Virus record (IMG/VR): IMGVR_UViG_3300022749_000038
Coordinates: 1 to 21,010 of that record
DNA: 21,010 nucleotides
Direction: 5' to 3' (one strand)
Source: a virus
In this document: one piece after another, positions 223 to 13,344 of the stretch
Numbering within the stretch: position 1 is the stretch's first letter
Layout of the letters: each line of letters begins with the position of its first letter
Notes under the pieces: model-generated
Database searches by the model: none
What the model was told of the DNA's origin: nothing
The model's input: only the letters and a program-made list of their open reading frames with translations
Position numbers and translations under genes: made by a program

Positions 223-250
223 ATCGGTAAGTCAACGCTGACTTACCGAT
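223..250. promoter_or_regulatory. Perfect copy of the dispersed operator-like palindrome (site 1)
   Basis: Two 12-bp arms, ATCGGTAAGTCA (223-234) and TGACTTACCGAT (239-250), are exact reverse complements around a 4-nt spacer. The last base overlaps the ligase stop codon. There is no T-tract, so an intrinsic terminator is unlikely. The core TAAGTCA-N4-TGACTTA recurs, less perfectly, at six other places. Unlike those, this copy has no recognised gene start just downstream; it lies between the ligase and the terminator. It may be a repressor-binding site that stops transcription. Confidence 0.7.
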
Positions 251-8848: not shown

Positions 8849-11161
8849 TTATGCGTAGGAGACCGTATACCAGTTGCCGTCCACGTCCGTGACCTGGAGG
8901 TAGCGCCAGCGCGCCGCCCAGAAGAGTTTCCAGGTCGGATCGGGCCCGAGACCCGTGACCACCGCACCGGGGAAATCCTCGTAGACGGCCTGGACGTTGT
9001 TGTGCCTGGTAAGCTGATCCTGAGCCGACTGGTCGCCGGCATTGACCAGACGAACGGTCTTTCTGGCGTTGTAGGTGCGAGCCCACGCCTCCGCCCGATC
9101 CTCGATGCGCTGGTTCAGGCCACCCGACGACGGGCCGGCGCCGAACTGCTTCGAGCCGAAGTCGCCACCCTGCCCGATCCAGAAGATGATCGAGTCGTCG
9201 GCCACACTCCGCCAGTAGAGGTAGCCGTCGGCCTCGAGGCGCCAGTAACCCTGGAAACCGGCCGTGTAGGCGAAGGTCATCCGCGGGTTCACCTTCGCCA
9301 GCGTGACATCGCCGCTGAGCGTGCCGCCGATCTTGTCGAACTTGCCCGAGATGTCCGGGCCGGCGTTGCGCAGCGCGGTGGCGAAGTCGCCGATCGCCGA
9401 CGACCAGACCGAGCCGTCCTTGCCCACGCGGAACACGTCGGCGCCCATGAAGAGGCCGAACACGTTGGCGCTCTGGTAGAGGGTCGCGGGCGTGCCGCCG
9501 GTCCGGTCGTCGATCTGGACCGCGTTGCCGGCGCCCGTGGCGTGCAGGATGTTGGCATTCACGTTCGCCGGGACCGTGAAGGAGCCGTCGGCGCCGAAGA
9601 CCGAGTAGCGGTAGGCGTTGGCCGCACCCGTGCGCACGACCAGGTTCTCGGTGTTGGCGTCCGTGTAGAGGTAGGTCTGCCGGCCCGAGAACTGGATGGT
9701 GGCGAAGTTGACCGCGCCGCCGATCGAGGCCTTCCCGTTCGGGTCGAAGTTCCCGCTGTCCCAGGGCGTGAGACCGGCCCAGCTCGGGCGCGCGGAGACG
9801 GACAGCGAGGCGAAGCTCGCCGCTCCGTTGAGGGTGGCCTTGGTGCTCGGGTCGAAGTTCCCGGCGTGCCACACGGCCTTGCCGCCCACGGCCAGCGACG
9901 CGAAGCCGGCGTCACCGCCGAGTGTCGCCTTGGTCGAGGGGTCGAAGTTGCCGCTGTCCCACGGGGTCAGTCCGCCCCAGCTCGGGCGGTTCGTGACCGA
10001 GAGCGAGGTCAGGTTGGCCGTGCCGGCGACGCTGAGCGACGGCGCGCTGACGGCCCCGGTGAACGCCGCGCCGCCGAGGTTAGCCTTCGAGGTCGGGTCG
10101 AAGTTACCCGCGTGCCAGACCGCGCTCGTGCCGACCTTCAGGGCCGCGAACGTGCCGGTGCCGGAGGCCGAGAGGTCGGCGACCGAGGTCGCGCCCGAGA
10201 CGGTGAGCGCCGAGAAGCTGACGCTGGAGTTCAGGCTCGCCTTGGTGGACGGGTCGAAGTTGCCCGCGTGCCAGACCGCCTTGTTGGCGACGGTGAGCGC
10301 GTCGAAGGCGCCGGAGGCCGAGGAGACCGACGGCGCGCTGATCGCGCCCTGGAAGGCGGCCCCAGAGAGCCCAGCCTTCGAGGTCGGGTCGAAGTTGCCG
10401 GCATCCCAGACGGCCTTGCCGTTGACGGTCGGGCGCTTGGCGAAGTCGGTGTCGCCCGCGATCGCGCCGCCGGTCTTGTCGAACTTGGCAGCCAGCGCCG
10501 TGGCCATGTCGGAGCGGATCGCGGTGTCGGCCGCGGCGAAGTCCGTGCGCACGCTGTCGAGCGCGGCCTGAAGCCCGGACACGTCCGAGATCGCGATGGC
10601 GAGCGCCGTCTTCAGGGCCGCAGCCGTGATCGCGCCCTTGAGCCCGGCCACCGAGAGCACGGCGTCGGTCGGCGTCAGCAGCTCCTTCCAGTTGGCGAGC
10701 GTGGTCGCCGGCTCGACCTTCAGGACGAAGCACTTGTTGAGGTCGGAGCGGATCGCGATGTCGCCGCGCTCGGCGGTGAGCGCGAGCATCTCGGCCTCAG
10801 ACGCCACCGGGAACGTGTCGGTGATCGCGACGGCCGGGATGATCGAGGCGTCGAGCTTGGAGTTGGCGTCCAGCACCGGCACCTGACCGGCGCCCGTGCC
10901 CGCGGCGAGCTTGGCGGCCGTGCCGAGTTCCGCCTCGATGGCAGCCTTGGCCGCGGCCGTGTCGCCGGCAGCGGTGTCGGAGATCGCCTGGAGCTTGCTG
11001 GCCAGGTCGGTGATGTCGGCCGCGACCAGGACCGTGCGCAGGTAGGTCAGGATCTGGCCCACGCTGATCTGCACGTCCCGGCCGCTCTGGACCGCGGCCC
11101 AGAAGTCCGCCGAGCCCAGGGCAGTTGCCTGCGGCTCCTCACTCGCCTTGCGGTTTGCCAC
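8849..11161 (-). CDS. Tail fibre protein with six GNFDP repeats
   Basis: A 770-residue fibre that would mediate host binding. Residues of about 95-168 (LDANSKLDASIIPAVAITD through RGDIAIRSDLNKCFVLKVE to NWKELLTPTDAVLS) resemble a shared module of phage tail fibres. A shaft follows with six AGNFDP or SGNFDP repeats at about 254, 299, 351, 403, 433 and 469, mostly preceded by VWHAG or PWDSG. KFDKTGG..GD at about 226 and KFDKIGG..GD at about 607 flank this region. The last ~160 residues are aromatic and non-repetitive, probably the receptor-facing tip. The start is GTG 11161-11159 behind GAGGA. The repeats also create DNA repeats of GGGTCGAAGTT at about 9738-10400. Confidence 0.88.
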   Translation of the reverse strand: MANRKASEEPQATALGSADFWAAVQSGRDVQISVGQILTYLRTVLVAADITDLASKLQAISDTAAGDTAAAKAAIEAELGTAAKLAAGTGAGQVPVLDANSKLDASIIPAVAITDTFPVASEAEMLALTAERGDIAIRSDLNKCFVLKVEPATTLANWKELLTPTDAVLSVAGLKGAITAAALKTALAIAISDVSGLQAALDSVRTDFAAADTAIRSDMATALAAKFDKTGGAIAGDTDFAKRPTVNGKAVWDAGNFDPTSKAGLSGAAFQGAISAPSVSSASGAFDALTVANKAVWHAGNFDPSTKASLNSSVSFSALTVSGATSVADLSASGTGTFAALKVGTSAVWHAGNFDPTSKANLGGAAFTGAVSAPSLSVAGTANLTSLSVTNRPSWGGLTPWDSGNFDPSTKATLGGDAGFASLAVGGKAVWHAGNFDPSTKATLNGAASFASLSVSARPSWAGLTPWDSGNFDPNGKASIGGAVNFATIQFSGRQTYLYTDANTENLVVRTGAANAYRYSVFGADGSFTVPANVNANILHATGAGNAVQIDDRTGGTPATLYQSANVFGLFMGADVFRVGKDGSVWSSAIGDFATALRNAGPDISGKFDKIGGTLSGDVTLAKVNPRMTFAYTAGFQGYWRLEADGYLYWRSVADDSIIFWIGQGGDFGSKQFGAGPSSGGLNQRIEDRAEAWARTYNARKTVRLVNAGDQSAQDQLTRHNNVQAVYEDFPGAVVTGLGPDPTWKLFWAARWRYLQVTDVDGNWYTVSYA

Positions 11162-11183: not shown

Positions 11184-12065
11184 TCAGTTGCTGTCGTCGT
11201 TCTCGACCTGCTGAAGGTCGCCGGCCTCGGTCAGGCGGATCACGCCGTCCTCGGTGAGCCGGTAGGTCGCCAGGGAGCCGAGCACGCCGGTTACGGTCGA
11301 AAGACCGGAGGCCTTGCCCTTGAGCGCCTTGGCGATGATCTCGTGGCCCGTCAGGCTGCCCGCGCCCGCGGGGTGGCCGCCCAGAACCTTCGCCACCCGC
11401 AGCGCGCCAGCGGGGCTCGCAGAGCCGTGCGTCGCGCCCGCGAGGGGCTTGCCCACTGCCAGGGCGCCCACGGCCGTGCTGGAGCCGCTGAGCGCGCCAC
11501 TGAGCGCCCTGTCGGTCCGGATCTCGCCCGAGGCCGAGCCGGTGCCGATGATCGTGCCGGCGAGCAGCTTCTTCACGAGGAGTTGGCCCGACGCGGAGCC
11601 GGTGCCCCGGGCCGTGTCGCCCGCGAGCTGGCGCCCGATGCGCGGGGTGCCGGCAGCCTGGCTCTTGCCGGCGGCCGTCGCGCTGAGCGGCTTGCCGATC
11701 TGGAGAGTCCCCTCCCCGCTCGCCCGGGCCGAGACCCAGCCGACCAGGCGCTTGCCGACGACCAGCGACCCGGTGACGCTCGCGCGCCCGGTGGCCTGGG
11801 CGTGCATGTCGTCGCTGAGCGAGGACCGGAGGCGGCCGGTGATCGTGCTGCGGCCCGAGGCGGTCCCGTGCAGCGGCGCGATGGTCGAGAGGCTCGCCCG
11901 GACGCTGCTACGGCCAGCCGCGACACCCGCGAGGTTGTCGGCCCGGCTGGTGATCGAGAGGCGGCCTGTGAGGCTCGCACGACCCAGCGCGGACCCGGAC
12001 AGCGCAAAGCGGTCGCCACCGTAGTAGCGACGGCCTGCGACAGCCGTGAAGGCGCTGGGGAGCAC
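11184..12065 (-). CDS. Repeat protein of about twelve 20-residue units, probable tail structural protein
   Basis: A 293-residue protein almost wholly made of tandem units of the form L-x-G-x-x-x-G-x-(A/G)-S-x-x-G-x-L-x-V-x-K. The leading glycine or alanine recurs at about residues 24, 47, 67, 89, 109, 129, 149, 170, 190, 210, 230 and 250, a 20-residue period with few deviations. Gly, Ser, Thr and Ala alternating with Leu, Ile and Val suggest a beta-solenoid. The C-terminus ends in paired RLTEDG/RLTEAG, seen in other phage tail proteins. The start GTG 12065 has AAGG upstream, overlapping the stop of the previous gene. It lies between a small tail protein and the fibre, so a shaft or fibre partner role is likely. 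Confidence 0.65.
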   Translation of the reverse strand: MLPSAFTAVAGRRYYGGDRFALSGSALGRASLTGRLSITSRADNLAGVAAGRSSVRASLSTIAPLHGTASGRSTITGRLRSSLSDDMHAQATGRASVTGSLVVGKRLVGWVSARASGEGTLQIGKPLSATAAGKSQAAGTPRIGRQLAGDTARGTGSASGQLLVKKLLAGTIIGTGSASGEIRTDRALSGALSGSSTAVGALAVGKPLAGATHGSASPAGALRVAKVLGGHPAGAGSLTGHEIIAKALKGKASGLSTVTGVLGSLATYRLTEDGVIRLTEAGDLQQVENDDSN

Positions 12066-12077
12066 GGGCCGGAGACC

Positions 12078-12473
12078 TTAGTCTTCGGTGATGGCGAGGG
12101 CGCCGACCGGGAAGCTCACCGGGTTGCCGGGGTTGATCGTCTGCTTGCCGCCGGTCAGCGGGGCCGACTCCAGCATGGTGCCGCCGGCAGCCGCGGAGAA
12201 CACGGCGAAGTGGGTCACGTCGGTGCCGCCCGCGGCGTTGCCGAAGTCCACGATGGCCGAGTTGGAGATCGTCTTGTTGGCCGGCTCGCCGAAGGTCGCC
12301 TGCACGCGCCCGTCGGGGCGAACCGCAGTCGTGACCTCCTGGCCGCCGGTGCCGGCGTCGGTCGGGTCGCCGTTGTAGAGGGCGATGAACAGGCCAGCGG
12401 GCGGGGCCGGGAAGGCGGTGCCGCGCAGCCAGTTGAGAAGGGCAGTTTCGAGGTAGGCGCTCTTGCCGGCCAT
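12078..12473 (-). CDS. Small phage tail/fibre-type protein
   Basis: A 131-residue protein of a recognisable phage type: helix YLETALLNWLRGTAF, then beta-rich AGLFIALYNGDPTDAGTGGQEV, TISNSAIVDFGNA, and VTHFAVFSAAAGGTML, ending in a LAITED-type strand. Similar small structural proteins are encoded beside tail fibres in many phages; I infer a virion tail component. ATG 12473-12471 has CAGGAG upstream. An operator-like palindrome lies 36-53 nt upstream, and the minus strand reads TTATGAT just before it, a possible -10 box. Confidence 0.7.
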   Translation of the reverse strand: MAGKSAYLETALLNWLRGTAFPAPPAGLFIALYNGDPTDAGTGGQEVTTAVRPDGRVQATFGEPANKTISNSAIVDFGNAAGGTDVTHFAVFSAAAGGTMLESAPLTGGKQTINPGNPVSFPVGALAITED

Positions 12474-12508
12474 TCGGGGCTCCTGTGGCCGGGCAGCGCC
12501 GGCATCGG

Positions 12509-12526
12509 TAAGTCAGTGGTGACTTA
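12509..12526. promoter_or_regulatory. Operator-like palindrome upstream of the fibre module (site 12509)
   Basis: TAAGTCA (12509-12515), GTGG, TGACTTA (12520-12526): both 7-bp arms are perfect. The flank ATCGG before the left arm matches site 1, so ATCGGTAAGTCA occurs at both 223 and 12504. On the minus strand TATGAT immediately precedes it, so a bound protein would cover a likely transcription start. Confidence 0.7.
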
Positions 12527-12591
12527 TCATAACCCGGGAGGAGCCGGCGATCCAGAGGGCCGGAGCGTGTTAGATACCCCGGATGCCCAAC

Positions 12592-12656
12592 GCCATCGCC
12601 CTGTATGTAGAATAACAGTATTAGATATATCTATTATCTACATACAGGCCGATGGC
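12592..12656. repeat. AT-rich inverted repeat with 20-bp arms
   Basis: Arms 12592-12611 and 12637-12656 match at 19 of 20 positions as reverse complements (arm core CCTGTATGTAGA). The 25-nt centre is almost pure A+T and holds a perfect 12-bp palindrome, TAGATATATCTA (12622-12633), on a slightly shifted axis. It begins 15 nt beyond the o-spanin stop. No T-tract follows on either strand, so it is not a standard intrinsic terminator. It could be an mRNA-end or pause hairpin, a protein-binding or recombination site, or a mobile-element remnant. Confidence 0.85.
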
Positions 12657-12671
12657 ACCGGGAAGTCTTGG

Positions 12672-12980
12672 CTACCGGGCGTAATCCCGGCGCACGGCGT
12701 TGATCCAGTCCACGGCGCGCTGACCGCAAGCGGTCTTTGCCCGGTCGAGGACCTTCGCCTCCCCGATGATCCGCACCACGTCGGCCTTGGACAGCGCCCG
12801 GTCCGGGATGTTGGGGAAGGCCCGCGCGAGACAGCCCTGGACCCCGTCAGGGGCCGCAGGCAGCGTCACGCGGATGCTGGTCCCGGTGAGCGGGGCCGGC
12901 GTGTTAGAGCTTACGCAGGCGCCCTGCGAGATCCCGATCAAGGCAAGTATCGCCAGCGCCCTTGTCCTTGGCCACCGCAT
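12672..12980 (-). CDS. Probable o-spanin (Rz1-like lipoprotein)
   Basis: A 102-residue protein with a signal sequence (basic MRWPRTR, hydrophobic ALAILALIGIS) ending at Cys22 in SQGACVSS. The lipobox is imperfect, with Gln at -3. The mature part has short proline-containing stretches and two more cysteines. Its first 77 nt overlap the end of the i-spanin gene in another frame, the classical Rz/Rz1 arrangement, and AAGGAG lies upstream of the ATG inside the i-spanin gene. Outer-membrane anchoring and a role in the last lysis step are inferred from this architecture. At about 80 mature residues it is longer than lambda Rz1. Confidence 0.65.
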   Translation of the reverse strand: MRWPRTRALAILALIGISQGACVSSNTPAPLTGTSIRVTLPAAPDGVQGCLARAFPNIPDRALSKADVVRIIGEAKVLDRAKTACGQRAVDWINAVRRDYAR

Positions 12981-13344
12981 CGTTGAGCTCCTTCAGTTTT
13001 GCGACATCCGCCTTCGCGGCCGCGAGGTCCTTGGCAGCCTGGGCCGCCTGCTGCTTCTGCTGAGCCTCCGCGATGTCGGCCCGCTTGGTCTCAGCGGCCT
13101 GGGCGCGGGCGGCTTCCTGCGCGAAGGCATCGTGGGCGCCCCGGGCCTCGCCGGCCTGGTAGAGCGCGCCGCCGACGATCAGGCAGATCCCGGCGGTGAT
13201 GAGCGGCTGCTTGATGAAGCTCGGCAGAAACGAGGTGCCGAACACGGCCAGCGCGATCAGGGCGATGCCCAGGGCGCCGGCCAGCGTCGCGGCGATCGAG
13301 AACGACGCCCAGCCGTGCGCGAGGGTGAGGAGAAGGCTGCTCAC
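12904..13344 (-). CDS. Probable i-spanin (Rz-like), two membrane segments plus coiled coil
   Basis: I start this at GTG 13344-13342, which overlaps the endolysin stop as GTGA and has GGAGGGG at proper spacing; an in-frame GTG at 13362 is less well placed. The 146-residue product has hydrophobic segments FSIAATLAGALGIALIALAVF and PLITAGICLIVGGALY, then a long Ala/Gln/Lys/Glu coiled coil (about residues 75-130), ending in DTCLDRDLAGRLRKL. Rz-type i-spanins normally have one N-terminal membrane helix; two here implies an N-out topology, or that the first segment adds a holin-like function. Position after the endolysin and overlap with the Rz1-like gene support the call. Confidence 0.7.
   Translation of the reverse strand: MSSLLLTLAHGWASFSIAATLAGALGIALIALAVFGTSFLPSFIKQPLITAGICLIVGGALYQAGEARGAHDAFAQEAARAQAAETKRADIAEAQQKQQAAQAAKDLAAAKADVAKLKELNDAVAKDKGAGDTCLDRDLAGRLRKL

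Follow-up and report, generated by a model that had tools for sequence, protein, structure and literature searches.

The AT-rich inverted repeat at 12592..12656 of the window (i.e., the whole 21-kb virus record that was analysed, a fragment with neither TerL nor repC) is best explained, at a probability of roughly 0.55, as the 3'-terminal hairpin of the lysis-operon transcript and as one member of a family of ~60-105-nt, AT-tipped hairpins that lie between transcription units in the SSU5 supergroup. Its position after a stop codon, the modest preference of the family for the transcript strand, and pairing that has been kept argue together for an RNA fold where the upstream transcript ends, which would set that transcript apart from the next operator-controlled unit. 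Family members are placed directly after a stop codon, and upstream of an operator where one was found nearby. The portions of the literature available to a search conducted mostly without subscription papers (covering PMC9928086, PMC5537653, PMC4503421, PMC9600943 and PMC10783043) contain no description of these hairpins.

Judged by its matches, the window represents part of a Methylobacterium phage-plasmid belonging to the SSU5 supergroup; the available text of PMC9600943 counts 268 members among SSU5-type phage-plasmids. By megablast, NZ_CP090351, a Methylobacterium oryzae plasmid that is complete and circular (116,758 bp), matches 95% of the window at 89.9%, and the circular pAMS5a (117,697 bp) matches 22% of it at 75.8%. 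Because both plasmids carry repC, terminase and tail genes, and because the TerL proteins of NZ_CP090351 and Salmonella phage SSU5 share 58.6% identity, we place the carrier among the SSU5-supergroup phage-plasmids. At 9163-9444 of plasmid NZ_CP006993, PLSDB predicts an OprJ efflux resistance gene where the annotation has a 93-aa hypothetical phage-plasmid gene adjoining a helicase; this call is probably a false prediction.

The core of the element consists of two 20-nt arms (12592-12611 and 12637-12656, minus strand) that are complementary at 19 of 20 positions (95%) across an AT-rich spacing of 25 nt. The 65-bp repeat with 19/20 arms and an A+T centre described in the sequence-only reading was confirmed by repeat search, AT scan and shuffling: the 25-, 40- and 50-nt stretches richest in AT over the whole 21 kb all fall at this element, and its inverted-repeat score of 17 was reached in none of 60 dinucleotide shuffles (maximum 15, mean 11.1), which rules out a chance palindrome. 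Because the neighbouring genes read minus, minus is the transcript strand, whose RNA fold has an energy of -47.9 kcal/mol (z -6.8), compared with -40.8 kcal/mol (z -7.2) for the opposite strand. On the transcript strand, three consecutive G-U pairs lengthen the stem at its foot, such that the full hairpin, supported by RNA folding and alignments, spans 12586..12662 (minus strand). Rfam gave no matches at the gathering threshold, and sub-threshold matches were to generic microRNA-hairpin types only. A second palindrome reported in the centre is indeed present (TAGATATATCTA, 12622-12633, read off the sequence), but the centre varies between copies and between syntenic relatives, and the inner palindrome is therefore not a conserved feature. 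An AAGT..ACTT motif occurs at the centre in some hairpin tips and is missing from most.

A long palindrome with an AT-rich centre could also be the site of a protelomerase or a site-specific recombinase, as had been proposed from the letters, but this explanation is highly improbable and already largely refuted. Protelomerase family PF16684 had no match in four relatives or in two complete plasmids, and neither PF00589 nor PF00239, searched as integrase and resolvase families, matched in the four relatives; moreover, both complete plasmid relatives are circular, and conservation is lowest in the centre of the hairpin, the place at which a protelomerase would have to act. An integron attC site is likewise not supported: the same four relatives lacked PF00589, and R-box pairing was inspected by eye only.

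The full hairpin starts ~9 nt past the stop codon of the upstream gene (12672..12980, minus strand), a 102-aa o-spanin-like ORF in Rz1 position without a PHROG match, which agrees with the placement after an o-spanin gene given in the sequence-only reading; the SSU5 lysis cassette has Rz1 annotations at the equivalent place. The second fibre module said to come next is not what follows: downstream of the hairpin lie a perfect operator-like palindrome, TAAGTCA-N4-TGACTTA (12509..12526, unstranded, from the sequence and a pattern scan), and then a phrog_240 gene (12078..12473, minus strand, annotated head protein, PHROG match). A -10-like TATGAT recognised by eye (12526-12531, minus strand) overlaps this palindrome, near which the promoter scan returned no sigma-70 match. 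The repeat search located the operator-like palindrome again at 223..250 of the window (unstranded), and a repetitive fibre-like region at ~9700-10430 has several partial cross-matches to relative L003.

With up to two mismatches, TAAGTCA-N4-TGACTTA occurs 43 times in G003 (117.5 kb), 23 times in G001 (82 kb) and 15 times in G004 (45 kb), compared with 1, 2 and 2 occurrences of a reversed control pattern in the same genomes, and it occurs 31 and 42 times in plasmids NZ_CP090351 and NZ_CP006993. It has the appearance of a network of repressor operators spanning the genome, comparable to the P1 C1 operators and the stoperators of mycobacteriophages. Among 12 tabulated Methylobacterium hairpin copies, such a palindrome lies 73-75 nt past the core of the hairpin in five, and six have none within 100 nt at this mismatch limit.

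Far from being isolated, as the repeat had been called, the window copy has two to four counterparts in each larger relative (four in M. oryzae, three in pAMS5a, and two each in L3, L8 and L9). In all six Methylobacterium elements (the window, L3, M. oryzae, L8, L9 and pAMS5a), a hairpin follows the stop codon of the o-spanin gene. The lower stem in M. oryzae-like genomes is GCCATCGGCCTG with small changes, and in the lysis-site hairpin of pAMS5a it has been swapped for an unrelated, still complementary sequence, with CCTGTA/TACAGG largely kept. Arm letters are nearly invariant in five Methylobacterium lysis copies, whose pairing percentage was reached by 109 of 500 shuffles; because these arms barely vary, a covariation count is uninformative here. 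MAFFT misaligned the AMS5 copy (alignment A2), and A2 was left out of the counts, as was A5, which did align. The fourth copy (~42800-43000 in NZ_CP090351, ~60500-60800 in NZ_CP006993 and ~100300 in G003) lies in a non-coding stretch that is rich in CCATGG-type short repeats and includes a shared GGCCGTTCCTAA segment. Searches with the element among annotated phages yielded short chance matches only, and a search of plasmids with the L8 copy gave nothing relevant. CCTGTAT- or TGTATGTAGA-type palindromes or matches in L002, L086, L088, L089 and L091 were set aside, their relatedness being unsupported.

Dispersed copies whose lower stem is shared inside each genome but differs from one genome to the next are what a mobile repeat (MITE- or REP-like) spreading through phage-plasmids would leave, and the sequence-only reading had listed a mobile-element remnant among its options. 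We consider this improbable: the hairpin occupies the same place in the window and in all five relatives, so that no empty site was seen, its sites are kept in divergent genomes, and its structure has been maintained through sequence turnover. Nor did the genome contig collection contain true copies by the lower-stem pattern. A host repeat was likewise rejected, since a strict scan of that collection for this pattern gave no matches, and a looser scan gave 15 chance-like hits, GC-rich or unrelated, whose interiors look like ordinary or unrelated sequence.

The most widespread copy of the family is the one that precedes the terminase. In plasmids of M. oryzae, Shinella and Rhizobium beringeri, in pAMS5a and in Sinorhizobium pLM21S1, a hairpin of this type sits just ahead of the gene for the small terminase subunit. 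A five-sequence TerL alignment used as query retrieved 80 viral contigs, 67 of which remained after dereplication and 63 of which had 1,000 nt upstream; hits were AT-rich inverted repeats 50 nt or longer within a zone that ran from 590 to 1,000 nt upstream of the TerL match. Of the 63 loci, 28 had such a hairpin; by comparison, it was seen in 12 of 800 control windows and in none of 315 block-shuffled zones. Part of the reason for this low count is that some hairpins sit farther upstream (L164, the L189 group, L197 and L198) and that the hairpin of L172 was detected by folding only. Refolding revealed no such hairpin at most of the remaining loci that lacked a hit in the zone, a result that counts against the RNA reading. 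Most out-of-zone hits, ~3.8-4.0 kb downstream of TerL, look like operator palindrome pairs.

In several Rhizobiaceae loci (L168, L173, L175, L186 and L187), an arm comes directly after the stop codon, and at many Rhizobiaceae pre-terminase loci an operator-like sequence comes after the hairpin. A terminating ribosome would cover arms that touch or overlap stop codons, a further point against the RNA reading. Pairing is kept: an alignment of five pre-terminase hairpins from Rhizobiaceae has 95.8% of its stem cells paired and six stem pairs changed on both sides, a number that none of 500 shuffles reached. Three similar copies occur in SSU5; CTTTTT comes after two of these, and TTTTTT follows the hairpin in the low-GC relative L198. 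At L169, L181 and L189, the stretch from the operator to TerS contains a GC-rich hairpin with a run of ~eight T, an arrangement like that of leader attenuators.

Of 44 family hairpins, 31 are more stable when folded from the transcript strand (Wilcoxon p 0.0013), compared with 47% of 479 control segments, though this p-value is optimistic because the 44 were chosen for being hairpins and are mutually related, and the L198 entry among them is not that locus's true hairpin, which sits outside the zone. G-U and A-C mismatches across the 44 family regions stand at 42:27 (p 0.09, not significant). A run of T4 or longer occurs in the first 10 nt downstream of only two of the 44 members, and this scarcity of T-runs (42 of 44 members without) speaks against ordinary intrinsic termination. 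Likewise, the T-tract said to be lacking at the window copy is truly absent: the terminator scan found no terminator-like hairpin with a T-run in 11900-13000. A strict scan for hairpins followed by T5 returned 1, 0 and 1 sites in three Methylobacterium elements of ~117 kb, indicating that these elements hardly use that kind of terminator.

The position of the pre-terminase copy invites another explanation, that it is or overlaps a cos site cut by terminase, with the other copies being cosN-like and without a binding site. In many siphophages cos lies just upstream of TerS, the linear SSU5 record starts ~10 nt beyond the dyad of its pre-terminase hairpin and 133 nt before TerS, and contig L145 begins inside the hairpin foot sequence. 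However, genomes contain several similar copies, the 11 metagenome contigs from the TerL search that reach 100 kb all run through the region without ending there, and a bias in folding toward the transcript strand is not expected of a packaging signal, so that we regard this explanation as unlikely. The start of the Cyrano record, one base from that of SSU5, was rejected as independent evidence for a DNA end: it coincides with the point at which its BLAST alignment to SSU5 begins (JQ965645, OV696614), so that record starts in the SSU5 group should not be read as physical ends. The available part of the Cyrano paper makes no mention of mapped ends.

Stem letters are common to the copies within one genome, which an RNA fold alone would not need and which counts against the RNA reading. 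Such homogenised copies, together with the near-invariant arms of the five Methylobacterium lysis copies and a recurrent TTCC/GGAA foot, would suit a site for a sequence-specific DNA-binding protein (of partition, replication or nucleoid type), the palindromy reflecting binding by a dimer. This is again rather unlikely, given arms that reach 45 nt and pair over long AT-rich stems, wholesale replacement of the lower stem in pAMS5a and the Rhizobiaceae, and the bias toward the transcript strand. Among the options raised by the sequence-only reading, an mRNA hairpin is the best supported, as evident from its position after the stop codon, the strand bias in folding, and the compensatory changes in relatives.

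If the element is an RNA hairpin, the nascent transcript would fold and thereby end, or be processed to end, downstream of the lysis genes. This might occur by non-canonical termination without a U-tract or by RNase III-type processing that leaves a protected 3' end; alternatively, the hairpin may only protect a 3' end made otherwise. The next module would then depend on its own repressible promoter, and the variable AT-rich tip could be free spacer, with foot and lower stem carrying the function. A more elaborate scheme, which we hold to be doubtful, is that the hairpins form a class of structured cis elements specific to phage-plasmids and recognised by shape plus foot sequence through an element-encoded factor, such that module boundaries would be closed to read-through in the plasmid state and open in the lytic cycle, and the pre-terminase copy would mark the start of packaging. 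SSU5-type phage-plasmids must silence terminase, capsid and lysis genes during plasmid replication, and a fold that both follows the lysis genes and just precedes the terminase offers a concrete candidate mechanism for insulating these modules. A conserved fold would also offer a letter-independent landmark for annotating SSU5-type elements, and it bears on whether high-GC phages end transcripts via AT-tipped hairpins without a T-run.

Among known systems, the promoter-early stem-loops (PeSLs) of T4-like phages are, in the available text of their description, promoter-terminator motifs linked to module shuffling (PMC4503421). Like PeSLs, the hairpins described here are intergenic stem-loops, may lie beside a promoter, and are repeated between genes of one phage genome; unlike PeSLs, they are ~60-105 nt long with an AT-rich tip, lack a T-run in alphaproteobacterial members, and have a neighbouring operator at only some copies, with no consensus promoter found near the window copy. 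They share with Rho-independent terminators a stable hairpin just past a stop codon and, in three copies (SSU5 and L198), T5-T6 after the stem, but the window copy and 42 of 44 members are without a T-run, and stem letters recur among copies. RNase III processes hairpins in the early mRNAs of T7-type phages, which resemble the present family, by description only, as long double-stranded RNA between transcription modules. Finally, in lambda and HK97, cos sites lie upstream of terS, the position of the pre-terminase copy within which the SSU5 record starts; unlike these cos sites, the hairpin is present in multiple copies per genome.
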